Assembly: GCA_027066365.1 (NCBI GenBank)
Contig: JAMONV010000021.1
Location: forward strand, 1-47,984
DNA: 47,984 bases
Direction: 5' to 3'
Source of the DNA: Flavobacteriales bacterium
Lineage (GTDB): Bacteria > Bacteroidota > Bacteroidia > Flavobacteriales > Flavobacteriaceae
Shown here: piece by piece, positions 1,550 through 38,990 of the stretch
How the letters are laid out: the number at the start of each line of letters is the position of its first letter
Position numbering within the stretch: position 1 is the stretch's first letter
Notes under the pieces: model-generated
Told to the model about the DNA's origin: nothing
The model's database searches: none
What the model saw: only the letters and a program-made list of their open reading frames with translations
Program-made: the position numbers and the translations under genes

Positions 1550-2527
1550 CTAATGATGCTTAAAAAACGCCCATATTTCATCGGTCGTTTCAATGTCGTG
1601 GTTTTGCTTGTTGAAATATTGCTCAAACAATGCCGAATACCGTTCGCGGATGCTGGGCGCCGAATGTCCGGCTCCGTTCAGTTTATAAAAAACCACTTCT
1701 GCACCGTTTATTCCGTCGCCATAAACAAAACGTTCCACCCGTCCTCCGTCATTGGGGTCAAGGTCGGGATAAAGGTGATATACCGGAATCGTATCGGTGC
1801 GGTTGATGTGCACCCAATAGGCAATACATTCCTCCGCCGGCGTAACCGACCCGTGCTCCGGATTGGGCGGATTGCCCAAATAACCCCCGTCGTAGGGCAT
1901 ATGATTATCATCCGTGCCAAACATAAACAATACGGGCAATGCCAAGGGATCCGAACATTCCGATACCGCCGGCTTAGACGCCACCACCGAAGCCACAGCC
2001 GCTATTTTGTCGTGCAGTTCAATACCCAAACGCTGGGCCATAAAACCACCGTTGGATGTCCCCGAAACATATATTTTGTCGCGATTGATCCGATATTGCG
2101 ATGATATTTCTTCGATCAATAGATCGATAAAGCGCACATCGTCGGCCATGGAGCTTACACGACTGTCGGCGCGGCAATCGTTCCAAGTGGGTTTCCCGTA
2201 GGCTCCGTTCAATCCCTCGGGATACACCACAATGAATTTCTCCCTCTCGGCCAATTCCATCCACAATTTGTAAGGCGTTTTGTGGCCGCTCTCTCCGGTC
2301 ATATCCTCGATATAAACACCTCCGCCGTGCAACTCAAATACAAGCGGCACCGAAATGTTTTCGATATTTTCAGGAATATAAACGGCGTAACGACGCATAG
2401 TGCCGTCCACATCCAAATAGCGCCTAAATAAACCCGTGTCGTAGCCGCCCTGCGGCGACGGAGGCTTACATCCGTTCAAACCCGGAATCACAAACACCAA
2501 CAACCAAATTTTTTTTAATAAATTCAT
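1550..2527 (-). CDS. Lipoprotein esterase of the PHB-depolymerase / feruloyl-esterase type
   Basis: A secreted alpha/beta hydrolase anchored as a lipoprotein. The N-terminus is MNLLKKIWLLVFVIPGLNGC, with a lipobox ending at Cys20. The serine nucleophile is in G-T-S-N-G-G near residue 158. The oxyanion region FELHGGGVYIED comes before it. The acid is likely in FGTDDNHMPYDG and the histidine in GAGHSAPS near residue 290. This order matches the Esterase_PHB/LpqC group, which acts on polyester or feruloylated sugar substrates outside the cell. I chose the ATG at 2527 because the in-frame TTG two codons upstream adds nothing to the signal peptide. It is divergent from the next gene. Confidence 0.8.
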   Translation of the reverse strand: MNLLKKIWLLVFVIPGLNGCKPPSPQGGYDTGLFRRYLDVDGTMRRYAVYIPENIENISVPLVFELHGGGVYIEDMTGESGHKTPYKLWMELAEREKFIVVYPEGLNGAYGKPTWNDCRADSRVSSMADDVRFIDLLIEEISSQYRINRDKIYVSGTSNGGFMAQRLGIELHDKIAAVASVVASKPAVSECSDPLALPVLFMFGTDDNHMPYDGGYLGNPPNPEHGSVTPAEECIAYWVHINRTDTIPVYHLYPDLDPNDGGRVERFVYGDGINGAEVVFYKLNGAGHSAPSIRERYSALFEQYFNKQNHDIETTDEIWAFFKHH

Positions 2528-2596
2528 TACCAATCCGTTTCTTATAATTTTGCATTATCAAAAACCGTTCCTTCCCTCGATTCCGGAAATAATAAA

Positions 2597-2604
2597 TAAT
2601 TTTG
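2597..2604 (+). promoter_or_regulatory. Bacteroidota -7 promoter element
   Basis: TAATTTTG matches TAnnTTTG and ends only 4 nt before the ATG at 2609. Transcription from it would give a leaderless or nearly leaderless mRNA. No clear TTTG -33 element is seen at the usual spacing. Confidence 0.5.
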
Positions 2605-2608
2605 CCTC

Positions 2609-3157
2609 ATGAACAGGCGCACATTCATAAAAGGAATCCTCGCTTATACGTCTTTGTTTACATTATCTTTTCCGTTTTCTTGTTCCGCCGAACGTGACAA
2701 AGACGAAATGCTTTGGTATGCCTTGGGTGAAGCTTTGTTCCCTTGCGATGAACCCGGCGCACCATGCATAAAAAATATAGGTTTTTTACATCATTTGCAC
2801 TCTACACTCAAAGATAAAAATTACGATCCCGATATCCGTGCCTTTATTCGTCAAGGTTTTATTCAATTCAAGCGGTATTTGCAAGACCGTAAAATCGATT
2901 TTGTGTCGGCGAATGACAATGAAAAAGAACGAATTATTCGAAATTTTATACAATCCGAAGGCGACAATTGGATTTACAGATTGAATGTCTTGCTCATAGA
3001 GTCTACCTTTTTGGATCCCTACTACGGCGTAAACTTCAACAAAACCGGCTGGAAATGGACATATCATACTCCCGGAACACCTCGCCCGGTTGCAGGACAC
3101 GATTACAAAAGCCTGCTTCGGAAAAGAAAAATTTCAGAAATTATCACAAAGATTTGA
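2609..3157 (+). CDS. Gluconate 2-dehydrogenase subunit 3-like protein (orphan)
   Basis: The 182-residue protein begins MNRRTFIKG, a twin-arginine (Tat) type signal, followed by a hydrophobic stretch and a cysteine (SFPFSCSAE) that could be lipidated. The mature part has ALGEALFPCDEPGAP and the C-terminal block DPYYGVNFNKTGWKW followed by PGTPRP. This matches the Gluconate_2-dh3 family, the small subunit that escorts a flavin-dependent GMC oxidoreductase across the membrane. No GMC oxidoreductase or cytochrome subunit is nearby: upstream is a divergent esterase and downstream is comEC. The catalytic partner must be elsewhere or lost. The start is fixed by the adjacent -7 element. Confidence 0.7.
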   Translation: MNRRTFIKGILAYTSLFTLSFPFSCSAERDKDEMLWYALGEALFPCDEPGAPCIKNIGFLHHLHSTLKDKNYDPDIRAFIRQGFIQFKRYLQDRKIDFVSANDNEKERIIRNFIQSEGDNWIYRLNVLLIESTFLDPYYGVNFNKTGWKWTYHTPGTPRPVAGHDYKSLLRKRKISEIITKI

Positions 3158-3208
3158 TAAAATAAGGTTTTATTTTTAATTTAGCTGTTAGCACAACGTC
3201 GTTTTGCC

Positions 3209-5248
3209 ATGTCGCTTCCCAAAACGGGTTTTTTCGAACGTTATCCGCTTGCGGCCCCTGTCTTGGCGTGGTTAACGGGAATTGTGGCAGGAAAATATGT
3301 TCCCGGACCAATAATTTTTTGGCTCGCAACCTTGTCCGTTTTATGGATTATTTTGGCCGGTGTGTTTTATTTGAAAAAATTGCATACACGTATTGCGCTC
3401 TTCTACGGCGCCTTGCTATTTATGTTTTCGGCCGGAATTTGCACTCAAAAAATCAACAATCCCGAAACCAAAGCGGCACACTTGAATAAAGAATTACCCG
3501 AAACTCCCGTCCGGATTCGTTTTATCGTTCAAAAAACACTGAAACCCACCGCTTATTACCGGCGCTATCAAGCCCAAGCACTAGAAACCGATAATCTAAA
3601 AATTCCCTACGGCTTATTAATCAAAATTCCCCGAAAGCTCCCGTTGGAACTGATGCCCGGAACTATTTATTCCTATCTGCCGAATCCCGGTGAATGGAAA
3701 GATTTTCCACCGCCAAACCTTCCTTTTGCATTTAACTATCAACAGTATGCTCACAGTCAAGGAATTTTCCGCACCATTAATCTGAAAGATACGCTATCTT
3801 TAGCCGTAGAATCGAAGCGCATCAATTATTATTCCCTGGTCGCCACGCTGCATCATAAAATCAAAGCCTTTTGGCAAAACCACGGCTTGAACCCTCGATA
3901 CACCGCTGTGGCTTCCGCGCTTCTGCTTGGTGAACGACAACATCTCGACTCCGGCATCAAACAACAATTTATCGATGCAGGAATTATGCATGTTTTGGCC
4001 ATCTCGGGATTACATATCGGAATTTTACTACTCTTCTTTCGGTTTGTCCTTCAACCTTTGAAATCCATAAAGATACTATATGATATTTTGATCGTGACGG
4101 CACTCTGGACCTATGCCGCCTTTACCGGTTTTTCGCCTTCGGTATTGCGTGCCGTGATGATGTTCAGTTTCCTTCAAGTTTCTTACTCTCCGGAACGAAA
4201 ATTTTCAGGTTTCTATACATTATTATTAGCCACATTCTTCATGACAATTATAAAACCGCAATATATTTTTGAAGCCGGTTTCCAAATGAGTTTCCTTGCG
4301 GTGGCTTCCATTTTGTGGTTTTATCCCCTCTTGCGTCAATTGTATTATCCGAAACAAACCGTTGCACGCTACCTGTTGGACACGATTTATGTATCCTTGG
4401 CGGCACAAGCGGGTGTTTTACCGCCGGTTTTGTATTATTTCCATAGATTTTCACCGGTTTTTCTGTGGGCCAACCTTTTGGTCATTCCGCTTCTAACGCT
4501 GATTGTATTTACGGGCATAACAAGCATCATGGGAGCATTGTTCAACTTTTCCATACCTTTCCTTGTTCCCGCTCTGAATTTTTTATTGGATATTTTACTC
4601 AAAACGACAAACAAGCTGGCACAAAGCCAATCGATCGTATATAAACACATTCCGTTAACCACCTTACAATTTTGGGCGCTTATACTTTTCATTACCGGCT
4701 GGGCCTATTTTCTTTCCCGGCGCAACACCAAAGCTTTAATTCCCGCTTTAAGCCTCACCGCTTTGGCTATTTGGTTGGATAACCTGGATTTATATAATCG
4801 CCTGAAAACAAAGGCCGTCTATTTTACCCAAAACCAAAGAAAACCTGTATTCATCCTGCAAAACGGTTTAAATATCAATATTTATGCCGAATCCGAATCC
4901 ATAGCGCAATCCGTAGTCGAAAATTTCCTCGAAAAAACAAGAGCGAAATATGTTAAAATTCATCACCTTCCTTATGCTTTCACTTATGGAAACCACACCT
5001 TCCTGCTAGCCGATTCTTCATATAATCCCGCCATGCTTAACCTTCACCCCAACTCGCTCATTCTGCACGGGAAAGTCAAAACCCATTTGGCACTCCTGCT
5101 TAAAAAGCTCGAACCCGGCCAAGTCATTCTCTCCGGATCCCGCCCACTCTGGCTCGACAAAAAATGGAAAACCGATTTGGAAAAATCAAATATTTCTTAC
5201 TGGGACTTTCAAGATAGCGGTTTTGTAAAATTCCCTATCCGGCAATAA
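3209..5248 (+). CDS. comEC: ComEC/Rec2-type DNA uptake channel protein
   Basis: A 679-residue polytopic membrane protein of the competence family, predicted to carry single-stranded DNA through the inner membrane. Two N-terminal membrane segments are followed by a soluble DUF4131-like region (about residues 60-190). The Competence domain starts near residue 220 with ASALLLGERQHLD and the hallmark HVLAISGLHIGIL, and is followed by about eight hydrophobic segments. The C-terminal soluble tail (about residues 525-679) is short and lacks the HxHxDH metallo-beta-lactamase motif of full-length ComEC, a common form in Bacteroidota. It lies 50 nt after the Tat protein gene and ends 13 nt before a convergent esterase gene. 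Confidence 0.85.
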   Translation: MSLPKTGFFERYPLAAPVLAWLTGIVAGKYVPGPIIFWLATLSVLWIILAGVFYLKKLHTRIALFYGALLFMFSAGICTQKINNPETKAAHLNKELPETPVRIRFIVQKTLKPTAYYRRYQAQALETDNLKIPYGLLIKIPRKLPLELMPGTIYSYLPNPGEWKDFPPPNLPFAFNYQQYAHSQGIFRTINLKDTLSLAVESKRINYYSLVATLHHKIKAFWQNHGLNPRYTAVASALLLGERQHLDSGIKQQFIDAGIMHVLAISGLHIGILLLFFRFVLQPLKSIKILYDILIVTALWTYAAFTGFSPSVLRAVMMFSFLQVSYSPERKFSGFYTLLLATFFMTIIKPQYIFEAGFQMSFLAVASILWFYPLLRQLYYPKQTVARYLLDTIYVSLAAQAGVLPPVLYYFHRFSPVFLWANLLVIPLLTLIVFTGITSIMGALFNFSIPFLVPALNFLLDILLKTTNKLAQSQSIVYKHIPLTTLQFWALILFITGWAYFLSRRNTKALIPALSLTALAIWLDNLDLYNRLKTKAVYFTQNQRKPVFILQNGLNINIYAESESIAQSVVENFLEKTRAKYVKIHHLPYAFTYGNHTFLLADSSYNPAMLNLHPNSLILHGKVKTHLALLLKKLEPGQVILSGSRPLWLDKKWKTDLEKSNISYWDFQDSGFVKFPIRQ

Positions 5249-31134: not shown

Positions 31135-31884
31135 TTACATTAACATTCCGCCATCTACCACCAAAACTTGACCGGTGATATAATCGCTCATGTCCGAAGC
31201 TAAAAATACACATGCACCGGCCACATCTTCAGGTTTTCCCGTGCGACGCAAGGGAATGCGATTTTTCCAATCTTCCAACACCTTTTCGTCCAAAGCCGCC
31301 GTCATTTCCGTTTCGATAAATCCCGGCGCAACCACATTGCACCGAATATTACGGCTTCCCAATTCCTGTGCGACCGATTTACTAAATCCGATAATTCCCG
31401 CCTTGGATGCAGCATAATTCGCCTGCCCAGCATTTCCGCTTATTCCCACTACACTTCCTATATTGATAATGCTTCCTTTTCTTTGCTTCATCATGGAACG
31501 TATAACCGCCTTGGTCATATTAAAAACCGATTTTAAATTGGTATTTATCACCCGGTCGAAATCTTCTTCGCTCATGCGTAGCAACAAAGTGTCCTTGGTG
31601 ATGCCGGCATTATTGATCAGCACATCGATTTTTCCGAAATCCACCAACACTTGCTCCACCGTTTTCTGTGCCTGAACAAAATCGGCGGCATCGGATTGAT
31701 ACGCTTTCGCTTTTATACCCATGGATTTAAGTTCGTTTTCCAAAATTTTGGCCTTTTCGACGGACGACCTATAGGTGAATGCCACATCGGCTCCTTGCTC
31801 GGCCGATTTCAACGCAATTCCTCGTCCGATCCCGCGCGAAGCACCTGTTATCAATACTGTTTTTCCTGCTAATAATCCGTTCAT
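31135..31884 (-). CDS. fabG: 3-oxoacyl-[acyl-carrier-protein] reductase
   Basis: NADPH-dependent reduction of 3-oxoacyl-ACP in fatty-acid elongation, cytosolic. The 249-residue classical SDR has the cofactor motif TGASRGIGRG (about 13-22), NNAG (about 90), the catalytic Ser in NIGSVVGISG, Tyr and Lys in YAASKAG, and VAPGFIETEMT. The C-terminal VVDGGMLM is typical of FabG. It is the first gene of a two-gene unit with the VWA-like protein and is divergent from rpiB across a 513-bp spacer. A TATCTTTG element lies about 25 nt upstream. Confidence 0.93.
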   Translation of the reverse strand: MNGLLAGKTVLITGASRGIGRGIALKSAEQGADVAFTYRSSVEKAKILENELKSMGIKAKAYQSDAADFVQAQKTVEQVLVDFGKIDVLINNAGITKDTLLLRMSEEDFDRVINTNLKSVFNMTKAVIRSMMKQRKGSIINIGSVVGISGNAGQANYAASKAGIIGFSKSVAQELGSRNIRCNVVAPGFIETEMTAALDEKVLEDWKNRIPLRRTGKPEDVAGACVFLASDMSDYITGQVLVVDGGMLM

Positions 31885-31908
31885 ATTCGTTTTGATTTAT
31901 AATTGATT

Positions 31909-31916
31909 CAAAGATA
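31909..31916 (-). promoter_or_regulatory. -7 promoter element for fabG
   Basis: On the minus strand the sequence is TATCTTTG, a full TAnnTTTG match 24 nt upstream of the fabG ATG. No TTTG lies at the standard spacing. Confidence 0.45.
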
Positions 31917-32270
31917 AACGAATTTTCAAAAATCGAATTTTTAAATCCGAACAACAATATTTATATCTTTTTTTTCTTTTGTAAATAAATGAATAAACAA
32001 TATTGATAATATTTCACTGTTGAAACCCCTCAAAATTATATAACAAATTGATTATAAACATTTTATGATGGATAATTTGGTTTAATAGACGTTGGTAGCA
32101 TGTTGAAAACTTCTAAAAATTTTACTTGTATTTTTCCCGTTTTCGATTAATGCAAAATTCCGTTGTAAAATCCAAATTTTTTATTCACGAAATTTCTGTT
32201 TTTTTTTCACAAATCCGGTTATTGAAAATCAATGAGAAAAAAAAATTTTTTTTCGGTTTTCAACAATGTT

Positions 32271-32301
32271 TTTGACATCCTTTTTTGGGGTTGTATTTTT
32301 G
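32271..32301 (+). promoter_or_regulatory. Bacteroidota promoter upstream of rpiB
   Basis: TTTG at 32271-32274, a 19-nt spacer and TATTTTTG at 32294-32301 are a consensus match. It would give a leader of about 90 nt before rpiB, which contains ATCATG...CATGAT, a short possible hairpin. Confidence 0.7.
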
Positions 32302-32374
32302 TGTTAGCCAAATGATCATGTTGTTTTTATCGGCATGATATAATGTTTGTCTTCAACCTAAAATCAAAATTCAT

Positions 32375-32382
32375 TAACTTTG
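32375..32382 (+). promoter_or_regulatory. Second -7 element immediately before rpiB
   Basis: TAACTTTG lies 15 nt upstream of ATG 32398. The in-frame TTG at 32380 is part of this element, so it is unlikely to be a start codon. The -33 element is not at standard spacing. Confidence 0.4.
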
Positions 32383-32397
32383 AAAAAAATAATTTCC

Positions 32398-32844
32398 ATG
32401 GAAAAAACCAAGATAATTGCTTTGGGCAATGATCATGCGGGATATGAATATAACGCCGCCATTGAAGAAATGCTGAAGGAAAAAGGTTATGAAGTATTAA
32501 ATTTCGGAACCCGGACAGGCGAATCGGTGGATTATCCGGATTATATTCATCCCGTTGCCGAAGCCGTGGAAACCGGACGCGCCGCTATGGGAATTATTTT
32601 ATGCGGTAGCGGTAACGGAGCCGTCATCACCGCCAATAAACATCAAGGTATTCGTGCCGCGCTCTGTTGGTCGCGCGAATTAACGGAATTGGCTCGAAAA
32701 CATAATGATGCCAACATATTAAGTCTGCCCGCCCGGTTTATTTCGAAATATCAGGCACTTGAATATGTACGTGTTTTTCTCGAAACCCCTTTTGAAGGTG
32801 GCAGACATGAACGCCGCATAAAAAAAATTCCTTGGATTCATTGA
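32398..32844 (+). CDS. rpiB: Ribose-5-phosphate isomerase B
   Basis: Interconverts ribose 5-phosphate and ribulose 5-phosphate in the pentose phosphate pathway. The 148-residue RpiB/LacA/LacB fold shows IALGNDHAGYEYNAAI at the N-terminus, SVDYPDY, the catalytic cysteine in GIILCGSGNGAVITANK, and LCWSRELTELARKHNDANIL. The ATG at 32398 is chosen because an in-frame TTG six codons upstream lies inside a promoter element. The next gene starts 3 nt after its TGA, in the same frame, so translation is likely coupled. Confidence 0.93.
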   Translation: MEKTKIIALGNDHAGYEYNAAIEEMLKEKGYEVLNFGTRTGESVDYPDYIHPVAEAVETGRAAMGIILCGSGNGAVITANKHQGIRAALCWSRELTELARKHNDANILSLPARFISKYQALEYVRVFLETPFEGGRHERRIKKIPWIH

Positions 32845-36063: not shown

Positions 36064-36482
36064 TTTTATTTGAATTCTCCGAATCCATACAACCGGAATT
36101 GCCAGTTGATTTAAAGTTACTCGAAGCATGGTTAATGCGATGTGCGCGTCGCCACCGGTATGAAATATCCTTTGTCCGCTATTATTTCACCGATAACCGC
36201 GAAATCGTACAAATCAACCGGGAAGTTTTTAATAGGACCTACCCTACGGATGTGATAAGTTTATACATACCCATTTTTTCACAAAAATTAAACGGCGAGA
36301 TTTTCATATCAATCGAACAAGTAGTGGAAAATTCACGTGAATATCAAGTCGAATACGGGATGGAATTTTTACGGGTTGCTGTTCACGGATTATTACACTT
36401 GTGCGGATACGACGATCAAACCGAAGAACAACGTTTGTTGATGCGCCGGTATGAAGACGAATGTTTATCGCTTTTTTCGTAA
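36060..36482 (+). CDS. ybeY: Endoribonuclease YbeY (rRNA maturation factor)
   Basis: Single-strand endoribonuclease for 16S rRNA 3' maturation and ribosome quality control. The 140-residue protein contains the metal motif normally written H-x3-H-x5-H. Here it is HGLLHLCGYDD with His109, His113 and Asp119, so the third ligand is Asp. TDVISLYIPIF corresponds to the conserved T-D-V-L/I-S/T-F block. The first four bases overlap the DUF4175 gene (ATGA type), and the stop codon TAA is also the start of the mnmG promoter element. It is the third gene of the rpiB unit. Confidence 0.9.
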   Translation: MILFEFSESIQPELPVDLKLLEAWLMRCARRHRYEISFVRYYFTDNREIVQINREVFNRTYPTDVISLYIPIFSQKLNGEIFISIEQVVENSREYQVEYGMEFLRVAVHGLLHLCGYDDQTEEQRLLMRRYEDECLSLFS

Positions 36483-36508: not shown

Positions 36509-36524
36509 TGTTCCACGTGAAACA
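36509..36524 (+). promoter_or_regulatory. parS: parS-type ParB-binding site, upstream copy
   Basis: TGTTCCACGTGAAACA differs at one position from the general parS consensus TGTTTCACGTGAAACA, at a site known to vary. Its last base is the A of the mnmG start codon. An exact inverted copy lies just after the mnmG stop at 38403-38418. Bound ParB here would also overlap the mnmG translation start region on the DNA. Confidence 0.75.
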
Positions 36525-38401
36525 TGTATCGTTATCCGACAAAATATGATATTGTCATAGTAGGTGCGGGGCATGCAGGATCCGAGGCCGCGGCGGCAGC
36601 GTCGCGTATGGGAATGAAAACCTTGCTCATAACTTTGGATTTGACCAAAATCGCACAAATGAGTTGCAATCCCGCTATGGGTGGTATAGCCAAAGGGCAG
36701 ATCATTCGTGAAATCGATGCTTTGGGCGGTTTATCCGGAATCGTATCCGATAAAAGTGCCTTGCAGTTTCGTATGTTAAATCGCAGTAAAGGACCCGCCA
36801 TGTGGAGCCCGCGAACCCAAAACGACCGCTTGTTGTTTTCCAAAATTTGGCGCGAAGCTTTGGAAAAAATACCCCGTCTTGACCTTATGGCGGATATGGT
36901 AACGGGTATAAGAGTGGAAGGAGAAAGCGTGACCGCCGTGAAGACGTCGTTGGGGCTTTTGATTGAAGCCAGAGCTGTTATTTTGACAGCCGGCACTTTT
37001 CTGAACGGAAAAATTTTTATAGGTAAACATAGCGTAAAAGCCGGGCGAATCGGTGAACCAGCGGCATACGGCATCACCGAAAATTTGATTGATTTGGGAT
37101 TTGAAGCAGGACGCATGAAAACCGGCACACCGCCTCGAGTGGATGCACGAACCATAGATTTTTCCAAAATGGAAGAGCAGAAAGGCGATGAAAATCCCGG
37201 AAAATTTTCTTTTTTACCCGGTGTAAAACCCTTATCCAAGCAGTTATCTTGTTATATTACCTATACTAATCCGGTTGTTCACGACACGTTGCGTATAGGT
37301 TTTCGCGAAAGTCCTTTGTTTCAAGGAGAAATTCAAGGTGTGGGTCCGCGTTATTGCCCTTCCATTGAAGATAAAATCGTTCGGTTTTCGGATAAAGAGC
37401 GTCATCAATTATTTCTCGAACCTGAAGGTTGGAACACGTATGAAATGTATGTTAACGGTTTTTCCACTTCATTACCTATTGACGTTCAGACTCAATCGCT
37501 ACGTCGTATTCCCGGCATGGAAAACGTCAAAATCATACGCTACGGCTATGCCATAGAATACGATTATTTCCCGCCCACCCAATTGTATAATACTTTGGAA
37601 ACCAAGCGGATTCGCAATTTGTATTTCGCCGGTCAAATCAACGGCACCACGGGATACGAAGAAGCAGCAGCGCAAGGAATTATGGCCGGAATCAACGCCG
37701 CACTACGTTTACAGGATCGAGAACCTTTTATTTTGAATCGTGATCAGGCTTATATCGGGGTTTTAATTGACGATTTGGTCACTAAAGGCACGGACGAACC
37801 TTACCGGATGTTTACTTCACGCGCTGAATTCAGAACCCTTTTGCGACAAGATAACGCCGATTTGCGACTCACACCGTTATCACACCGTTTGGGTTTGGCA
37901 TGTGACGAACGCATGCGAGTTGTGGAAGAAAAACAACGTCAAATTTCCAGATTAATCGATTTTATTCAACGCCAAAGCGCCTCGCCCGAAGAAGTAAATC
38001 CCGTTTTGGAATCGGTTTCCACACCGGCAATCAAGCAGTCTTTCAAATTAAAAAAAATATTATCGCGTCCGCAATTAAACAAACGGGATTATTTAAAAAT
38101 ACCCGTTTTTAAAAAATTTGTAGAAGACAATCGAATAAGCGAAGAAGCTTTAATGCAACTGGAAATACATTTGAAGTATGAAAAATACATAGAAAAAGAA
38201 AAAGCCAATGCGCAAAAGATGAGAAATTTGGAAGATATAACCATTCCCGAGAATTTTGATTTTGATAAAATACCTTCTTTATCCTTCGAAGGAAGGGAGA
38301 AACTGAAGAAAATCCGCCCGCGTAATATCGGTCAGGCTTCCCGAATCAGCGGGGTTTCCGTTTCGGATATTCAAATTTTGTTGGTTTACATGGGTAGATA
38401 A
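36524..38401 (+). CDS. mnmG: tRNA uridine 5-carboxymethylaminomethyl modification enzyme MnmG (GidA)
   Basis: FAD-dependent subunit of MnmE-MnmG, which makes cmnm5U/nm5U at the wobble base of certain tRNAs. The 625 residues show the dinucleotide-binding motif IVGAGHAGSEAAAAASRMG, MSCNPAMGGIAKGQI and GTPPRV. GQINGTTGYEEAAAQGIMAG contains the second GidA signature. The C-terminal helical domain binds MnmE. Start ATG 36524 abuts one parS-type site and the stop codon abuts an inverted copy. gidA is classically origin-linked and often near parAB, which fits. It has its own -7 element and a terminator at 38432. Confidence 0.95.
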   Translation: MYRYPTKYDIVIVGAGHAGSEAAAAASRMGMKTLLITLDLTKIAQMSCNPAMGGIAKGQIIREIDALGGLSGIVSDKSALQFRMLNRSKGPAMWSPRTQNDRLLFSKIWREALEKIPRLDLMADMVTGIRVEGESVTAVKTSLGLLIEARAVILTAGTFLNGKIFIGKHSVKAGRIGEPAAYGITENLIDLGFEAGRMKTGTPPRVDARTIDFSKMEEQKGDENPGKFSFLPGVKPLSKQLSCYITYTNPVVHDTLRIGFRESPLFQGEIQGVGPRYCPSIEDKIVRFSDKERHQLFLEPEGWNTYEMYVNGFSTSLPIDVQTQSLRRIPGMENVKIIRYGYAIEYDYFPPTQLYNTLETKRIRNLYFAGQINGTTGYEEAAAQGIMAGINAALRLQDREPFILNRDQAYIGVLIDDLVTKGTDEPYRMFTSRAEFRTLLRQDNADLRLTPLSHRLGLACDERMRVVEEKQRQISRLIDFIQRQSASPEEVNPVLESVSTPAIKQSFKLKKILSRPQLNKRDYLKIPVFKKFVEDNRISEEALMQLEIHLKYEKYIEKEKANAQKMRNLEDITIPENFDFDKIPSLSFEGREKLKKIRPRNIGQASRISGVSVSDIQILLVYMGR

Positions 38402-38402
38402 A

Positions 38403-38418
38403 TGTTTCACGTGGAACA
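38403..38418 (-). promoter_or_regulatory. parS: parS-type ParB-binding site, downstream inverted copy
   Basis: TGTTTCACGTGGAACA is the exact reverse complement of the site at 36509-36524. The identity extends to 19 bases when flanks are included. It begins one base after the mnmG stop codon. Confidence 0.75.
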
Positions 38419-38453: not shown

Positions 38454-38990
38454 TTATATTTTCACTTCGTATCGACCGTTGATGGTTTCGGTGTGTTTTT
38501 CCGCCAAGTCGATTGTTATCAGGATTCGATGGTGTTTTAAATCGGGTTCGATTTTAATTTTTCCTTTTTTTGCCGGATGATATCCGGAATCCGGGTGAAA
38601 AGCCATAAAACCCGAAAAGGTGTCGATTTTTTTCAATTCCCGATCGATAAATTCTTTTTTGTCTATGGTTTTAGGCAAGTTGAATAGAACGACGTAATCC
38701 ATTCCGCTGTCCGGTAACGGGTGAACCAAATCGATTCGTTTGGTGATGCTTACGGCAAACCCGTCGGCCGGCGCCAAAACGGGATAAAATTTTCCCGCGC
38801 CGTCTTTTTTCCAAACAAAATGTTTTCCCGGAATGATTCGGATTTCGGTTTTTATGATTTTATCCGCCAACGTATCGGTTTTTTGCGAGATGACAGGTGA
38901 AGAAATTTTTTGCGTGTCAAAAGCTTTGTTTCCCGCGCATCGAAAAAATAATACAATGAATAATCCGCTCAGCCAAAATAAGTTTTTCAT
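38454..38990 (-). CDS. Putative lipoprotein of unknown function
   Basis: A 178-residue protein beginning MKNLFWLSGLFIVLFFRC, a lipoprotein signal with the likely lipidated Cys18 followed by Ala-Gly-Asn. The mature part appears mostly beta (ADGFAVSITKRIDLVHPLPDSGMDYVVLFNLP, FSGFMAFHP). No family motif is recognised. It is the only minus-strand gene between 32.4 and 47.7 kb, and converges on mnmG. It is divergent from the Usp gene with a spacer of 109 nt. It is probably attached to a membrane after LspA processing. Confidence 0.7.
   Translation of the reverse strand: MKNLFWLSGLFIVLFFRCAGNKAFDTQKISSPVISQKTDTLADKIIKTEIRIIPGKHFVWKKDGAGKFYPVLAPADGFAVSITKRIDLVHPLPDSGMDYVVLFNLPKTIDKKEFIDRELKKIDTFSGFMAFHPDSGYHPAKKGKIKIEPDLKHHRILITIDLAEKHTETINGRYEVKI

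Follow-up and report, generated by a model that had tools for sequence, protein, structure and literature searches.

Genomic context of the SDR/rpiB spacer

The window analyzed here, a stretch of 47,984 nucleotides, is an entire contig (C21) of a draft genome (G000) that consists of 64 contigs, has a size of 2.03 Mb, and is 98.99% complete. The best named matches of the mnmG gene on this contig are approximately 65% identical and stem mostly from Flavobacteriales genera. The spacer under study (positions 31885–32397) is located between two divergent genes and extends from the start of a short-chain dehydrogenase (SDR) gene on the minus strand (31135–31884) to the ATG of rpiB on the plus strand (32398–32844; the rpiB queries took the in-frame position 32395). 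Its A + T content of 76.5% (31885–32394) compares with a window mean of 58.6% and exceeds that of every other 500-bp segment of the window (steps of 10). An earlier sequence-only reading, which had proposed this spacer as a replication origin, had described it as an AT-rich divergent gap, and this description was borne out.

The C-rich gene that, with ybeY and mnmG after it, follows rpiB had been called DUF4175 in the earlier reading, and this label is kept here, although no Pfam family was found for it at an E-value of 0.001. The spacer has genes of a single direction on this side. To its right, the gene caller reported 11 ORFs, all of them on the plus strand, in agreement with the earlier remark that almost all genes there run rightwards. 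A minus-strand ORF at 38454–38990, which has relatives in two other genomes of the same genus (G004 and G002), was dropped by the gene caller; it overlaps a plus-strand ORF whose true start lies nearer 39100. An Rfam scan of the window revealed nothing beyond three tRNAs.

The spacer contains an A9T8 tract (32237–32253) and three TGTTGAAA motifs, at 32018 and 32101 on the plus strand and at 32258 on the minus strand, exactly as had been noticed from the letters. The two near-DnaA boxes that had also been listed are valid under a looser consensus alone, because no site in the spacer lies within one mismatch of TTATCCACA.

Conservation of an inverted pair within the genus

The 9-mer TGTTGAAAA, which reads TTTTCAACA on the other strand, was alone among all 9-mers in having two or more copies in every one of four spacers of the genus. 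This k-mer test comprised four of the eight genus rows, namely the AT-rich ones (G000, G002, G004, and G005). A first shuffle test without G/C requirement yielded 5 false positives in 400 runs and was therefore repeated with the requirement of at least two G/C per 9-mer. None of 1,500 dinucleotide shuffles then contained any such 9-mer at two or more copies in even three of the four spacers, as compared to four of four for TGTTGAAAA. In all four AT-rich spacers, TGTTGAAAA and TTTTCAACA are arranged as an inverted pair.

Counts of single TGTTGAAAA sites, of which G000 has 95 copies, and the closest pair within one genome were considered as evidence and rejected as insufficiently rare. For this reason the occurrence of the pair as a single copy across genomes was used. 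Nine drafts of the genus were searched over their whole genomes for TGTTGAAAA-N125..155-TTTTCAACA plus the shorter spacing N94..124, and the pair, with 94 to 155 nucleotides between its arms, was found at one place per genome in eight of them; the search of the whole G008 draft did not retrieve it. The expectation by chance is 0.066 pairs per genome (from the counts in G000), and a control with the reversed pattern matched one place across the nine drafts, in G005. Four of the five genomes that had not been used for defining the pattern contain the pair, which corresponds to P = 8e-5 if genomes are independent, as related genomes are not.

In seven of these eight genomes the pair is adjoined by rpiB and/or the SDR gene. 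The rpiB gene adjoins it in five (G000, G002, G004, G005, and G007, where the contig ends inside rpiB) and the SDR gene in four (G000, G001, G004, and G006), whereas in G003 neither is found within 1.5 kb. The conserved entity is thus the element rather than one neighboring gene. Upstream of rpiB, G003, G006, and G008 have GC-rich DNA instead of an AT-rich spacer; this DNA (L130, positions 2250–3800; L131; L138) has a G + C content of 53–69% and looks repetitive by eye.

An alignment of the eight elements showed a mean column identity of 50% and comprised a T-run/A-run block, TGTTGAAAA, for which the elements had been selected, and another region with boxes. In a gap-free part of the latter, G002 has TTTTCCACA at the place occupied by TTTTCAACA in G003 and G006, followed by TTATTCACA (TATTTCACA in G002). 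Because TTTTCAACA is exchanged with the known DnaA-box word TTTTCCACA at an aligned place, its sequence identifies it as a predicted DnaA-type box. The spacer, whose comparison across relatives had been suggested as a check, is kept across the genus as a box-bearing element, and the TGTTGAAAA(C) motif singled out before is the conserved part of it. Absent from the earlier reading were the assignment of TGTTGAAAA itself as DnaA-type box and the change in DnaA described below.

Predicted DnaA-type boxes in the spacer

Four predicted sites of diverged consensus form a putative DnaA-box cluster in the spacer. Box 1 (GTTTCAACA, 32018–32026, minus strand) recurs as an identical 9-mer in the spacer of G002. 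The putative boxes 2 and 4, both TTTTCAACA, represent the left arm (32101–32109, minus strand) and the right arm (32257–32265, plus strand, retrieved by the pair search) of the inverted pair; box 2 is present in all eight elements of the alignment, its presence having been the basis of their selection. Box 3 (TTTTTCACA, 32203–32211, plus strand) was set by MAFFT against TTATTCACA in G003 and G006, TTTTCCACA in G005, TTTTCAACA in G001, G004, and G007, and TATTTCACA in G002, and its placement is alignment-dependent. A weak DnaA-like site (TTATTCACG, 32181–32189, plus strand) was assigned by sequence likeness. At 31963–32015, a T-run followed by an A-rich stretch falls into the T-run/A-run block of the genus alignment and is a candidate unwinding element.

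GC skew in the window and in related genomes

The G and C counts that the sequence-only reading had given for four stretches (124/208, 104/89, 60/91, and 75/44) proved to be exact. Its placement of the skew switch at the spacer agrees with the GC3 skew of plus-strand genes, which steps up there, but not with the raw cumulative GC skew computed over the window, which is lowest at 36,293, within ybeY. Measured rightwards from the start of rpiB, this minimum is 3.9 kb away and the 8-kb skew change point of the window 5.2 kb away. As the raw minimum in ybeY follows the C-rich DUF4175 gene, raw cumulative skew was set aside as sole locator. The DUF4175 gene has a skew of −0.10 over all codon positions but of −0.01 at third positions, and this C-rich gene largely accounts for the doubt, raised earlier, that the switch sits nearer 36 kb. 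Raw skew in the window is confounded by gene strand and protein content.

Since the gene caller reported no minus-strand gene on the right side, the comparison in the window was limited to plus-strand genes. Their GC3 skew amounts to −0.327 on the left side of the spacer (13 genes) and to +0.053 on the right side (11 genes; Mann-Whitney P = 1e-4, calculated from rounded per-gene values). Cumulated gene by gene, GC3 skew drops steeply up to approximately 31.9 kb, is nearly flat to approximately 38 kb, and rises thereafter.

The check on the skew minimum that had been proposed with the original call was carried out in relatives. A 659-kb contig of G004, a member of the same genus, repeats the gene order SDR, rpiB, DUF4175, ybeY, mnmG, and its skew minimum over 240 kb (81–321 kb) falls at position 195,520. 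This position is located in the orthologous spacer, with the SDR start on one side and the rpiB start on the other, and is 5.5 kb from mnmG. Over these 240 kb, the GC3 skew changes across the spacer from −0.224 to −0.020 in plus-strand genes and from −0.011 to +0.147 in minus-strand genes; within 40 kb on each side, it shifts by +0.18 and +0.08, respectively.

Across 60 genomes, our own included, mnmG and rpiB were located with matches in 57 and 56 genomes, respectively, and four single-contig genomes were sampled for skew. G038, a relative at the order level, has a sharp switch with its minimum 578 bp upstream of rpiB, and mnmG lies 21.7 kb off. The sampled skew of G031 changes sign between the 916–936 and 936–956 kb samples, with some contrary samples later; rpiB is found at 954 kb, mnmG at 1,277 kb, and dnaA at 2,324 kb, so that the switch is within approximately 20 kb of rpiB, which is 323 kb away from mnmG. 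In G022, a gene-controlled sign change occurs between the samples at 900–920 kb, which has rpiB, and at 920–940 kb, which has mnmG. The sampled skew of G047 is noisy and changes somewhere in 1–101 kb, where dnaA at the contig start fits as well as rpiB (122 kb). Among the 26 genomes with 27–60 kb of DNA around rpiB, a set including the window's genome and G004, seven have a local skew minimum at rpiB (−1000 to +300 of its start) and 11 have an 8-kb change point there (−1500 to +1000).

Spacers upstream of rpiB outside the genus

Of 48 collected rpiB-upstream sequences, eight genus rows were removed (G001 had no upstream DNA), which left a set of 40 spacers. Some of these come from related species, with 85% as the best long match (two Tenacibaculum), but no two of them are nearly identical. 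The 40 spacers are strongly enriched in putative TTAT(T/C)(A/C)ACA boxes, and their top over-represented 9-mers relative to 30 dinucleotide shuffles are overlapping DnaA-type words: TTATTAACA has 32 copies compared to 2.4 expected, TTATCAACA 23 compared to 1.2, TTATTCACA 11 compared to 1.0, and TTATCCACA 7 compared to 0.6. Because TTTTCAACA occurs in seven of these 40 spacers as well, the predicted box shift in the genus appears to be one of degree, gradual rather than absolute.

In the 26 genomes, the 700 bp upstream of rpiB contain 42 box-type sites as compared to 2.8 expected from the remaining DNA (34 as compared to 1.7 for TTAT[CT][CA]ACA alone). At least two such sites are present in this stretch in 16 genomes and fewer than two in 10, and it is strictly the densest box stretch in 12 genomes (16 when ties are counted). 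In view of this excess and of the seven and 11 genomes with skew signals at rpiB, the family-wide box evidence is strong whereas the local skew evidence is mixed.

A 40-bp core (AAATGATGATTATGATAGTGTGTTAATATGTGGAATAACT) was found in 22 of the 40 spacers, always on the rpiB strand and 266–547 bp upstream, and beat every shuffled control (100 single-base shuffles per spacer). By eye it resembles a box followed by trio-like triplets, with a loose likeness to the DnaA-trio module, and it is weak in the genus. The window contained no significant match to this core, the best score being −5.0 in the spacer and −3.7 elsewhere in the window.

parS sites, ParB, and the mnmG locus

Both parS-type centromere sites that had been reported 4–6 kb from the spacer were recovered as 16-mer matches (TGTTCCACGTGAAACA at 36509–36524 and TGTTTCACGTGGAACA at 38403–38418). 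They are the only perfect parS sites in the 2.03-Mb genome, and also its only TGTTYCACGTGRAACA matches with fewer than two mismatches. The two sites directly flank mnmG (gidA; 36524–38401, plus strand), an origin-region landmark, and a ParB gene is present in the same genome (C1:20931).

A parS-type 16-mer with at most one mismatch was found within 500 bp of mnmG at 71 of 80 loci (L006–L085), and on both sides of the gene at 50 of them. Such sites often lie 10–40 bp from the mnmG start or stop codon, and 24 others occur in the 1.33 Mb of flanking DNA. Upstream of mnmG, three Flavobacterium loci (L036, L041, and L043) carry arrays of 6, 6, and 10 parS-type sites with no more than one mismatch each. 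In G002, contigs C48 and C134 carry two different full-length mnmG genes, 79 and 77% identical to that of the window, which points to contamination or duplication. At L074, L078, and L080 (Fibrivirga, Lunatimonas, and Dyadobacter, all Cytophagales), clusters of two, two, and five TTATCCACA boxes per 600 bp, perhaps origins, are located approximately 4.4–4.6 kb right of the mnmG start. As an origin in its own right, mnmG was judged the less likely candidate: parS sites are common near it, but the skew switch lies nearer rpiB when the two genes are apart.

DnaA

The only dnaA gene found is located at C54:18359–19759, and thus on a contig other than the window's. The region upstream of it was tried as a source for the box consensus and discarded, as it contained one TTATCAACA and otherwise weak near matches. 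Outside the genus, the helix-5 sequence of DnaA domain IV is RDHATVLHACKTV in every one of the 22 family genomes examined (those with the best scores among 50 matching). Within the genus, it reads [KR][DN]HATV[IV]Y[SA] in all eight genomes with a match (G001 gave none), which amounts to a change from RDHATVLH to [KR][DN]HATV[IV]Y. In the numbering of the E. coli equivalents, assigned by motif, His439 is replaced by Tyr and Leu438 by Ile or Val in eight of eight genomes, and Asp433 by Asn in four. Passages of PMC5043019 give the E. coli equivalents 399, 423, 432–435, and 438–439 as base-contacting positions.

The SDR/rpiB spacer as probable chromosomal origin

Taken together, these results make it very probable that the spacer at 31885–32397 is the chromosomal oriC, a DnaA-type origin with diverged boxes that is located beside rpiB rather than beside dnaA. 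The origin call of the sequence-only reading is supported by the skew minimum in G004, the GC3 step in plus-strand genes, the conserved pair, and the parS sites. The location of the element, its conservation and single copy, the box-type likeness of its sites, the skew, and the nearby parS sites are direct observations.

The evidence also bears on where else replication might start. An origin in the parS-mnmG region (approximately 36–38.5 kb), with the spacer as no more than its AT-rich flank, is unlikely, even though the raw skew minimum falls there, both perfect parS sites flank mnmG, and two flavobacterial genome papers (on Mariniflexile and Algorimicrobium) contain passages that name mnmG as oriC marker and put oriC at or next to it; in the Mariniflexile paper, figure legend and text contradict each other on oriC. 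The region from 36 to 38.5 kb contains neither TGTTGAAAA nor a site within one mismatch of TTATCCACA, and the AT-rich gap nearest to it is a short one at 38.9 kb (200 bp with 72.5% AT). Moreover, in G004 the skew minimum falls into the SDR/rpiB spacer and not at mnmG, and the switch tracks rpiB where mnmG is distant, as in G038 and G031.

Sites that titrate or reactivate DnaA are named datA and DARS, respectively. That the box pair is such a side site, or a regulatory site of rpiB or the SDR gene, with the true origin elsewhere, appears highly improbable: it is the sole pair of its kind in eight of nine genomes, coincides with the skew break and parS, and is also found without rpiB or without the SDR gene as neighbor. 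Its position between two divergent genes would nevertheless suit a regulatory role, and DnaA-box clusters outside origins do exist according to passages of PMC5043019. Hardly any credence can be given to the explanation that the skew step reflects gene orientation and chance in the absence of an origin. With each of the 11 ORFs on the right side running rightwards, the window itself offers no comparison of minus-strand genes there; however, the step is seen in plus-strand genes alone, both gene strands shift across the G004 spacer, and the element is conserved as a single copy.

If replication initiates at the spacer, as we infer, DnaA would bind the diverged boxes (TTTTCAACA and close variants), whose inverted pair is 156 bp apart, and further box-type sites between and beside the pair would take part. 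The DnaA complex would melt the neighboring T-run/A-rich stretch, most likely at 31963–32015. Upon loading of the helicase two forks would depart in opposite directions, and the two parS sites 4–6 kb to the right would let ParB/ParA segregate the new origins. The main box would have moved in the genus from TTAT(T/C)(A/C)ACA to TTTTCAACA alongside the changes in helix 5 of DnaA. We tentatively suggest, as a possibility of somewhat less than even likelihood, that DnaA and box co-diverged in the genus and that the origin is a self-contained cassette whose flanking rpiB and SDR genes are swappable. Judged from the sequences, box and initiator may have changed because of each other. The joint shift of box and DnaA helix at the genus level would be a natural test of how initiator and site change together while replication persists, and a rule placing the origin upstream of rpiB in many genomes of Flavobacteriales type, with a recognizable box set, would help to orient draft genomes and to read growth rates from metagenomes.

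Comparison with known origins

For Bacteroidota, most replication origins are software predictions. One paper reports an Ori-Finder oriC of Elizabethkingia that lies far from dnaA, and according to passages of PMC11278836 the default choice of dnaA did not fit the skew in one report. For Melioribacter, a deeper relative, passages of PMC3534657 give a predicted origin between dnaA and dnaN. Judged on titles and abstracts, the open-access literature contained no report of an rpiB-linked origin in Bacteroidota, and on a DnaA-trio in this group it yielded one unrelated paper. The probable origin belongs to a known kind, and no description of the box variant, of the DnaA change, or of the rpiB rule was encountered in open-access literature.

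Like oriC of E. coli, B. subtilis, and H. pylori, the spacer is an AT-rich intergenic region with a predicted box cluster beside a T/A-rich stretch, a skew minimum, and parS nearby. Unlike these origins, it is located away from dnaA (C54), its main box is TTTTCAACA, and it lacks boxes that match TTATCCACA with at most one mismatch. It resembles the other rpiB-upstream spacers of Flavobacteriales type in its place, its AT-richness, its putative box clusters, and a skew minimum, which the latter show in part of the genomes. They differ from it in carrying mostly TTAT(T/C)(A/C)ACA boxes and, in 22 of 40 cases, the core AAATGATGATTATGATAGTGTGTTAATATGTGGAATAACT, which is unrecognizable by score here. 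On its complementary strand, the core of these other spacers appears by eye as a box plus in-phase A-T-x triplets, similar to imperfect trios of the DnaA-trio module that passages of PMC8235120 describe for B. subtilis and H. pylori. Among epsilonproteobacterial origins, the consulted passages of PMC5043019 place the origin typically at ruvC-dnaA-dnaN with a TTCAC-cored box, as opposed to rpiB and TTTTCAACA here. The same passages likewise report a shifted box together with variation in helix 5 at the equivalents of E. coli 435 and 438–439, with Tyr at position 439 in 7% of the epsilon/delta sequences.
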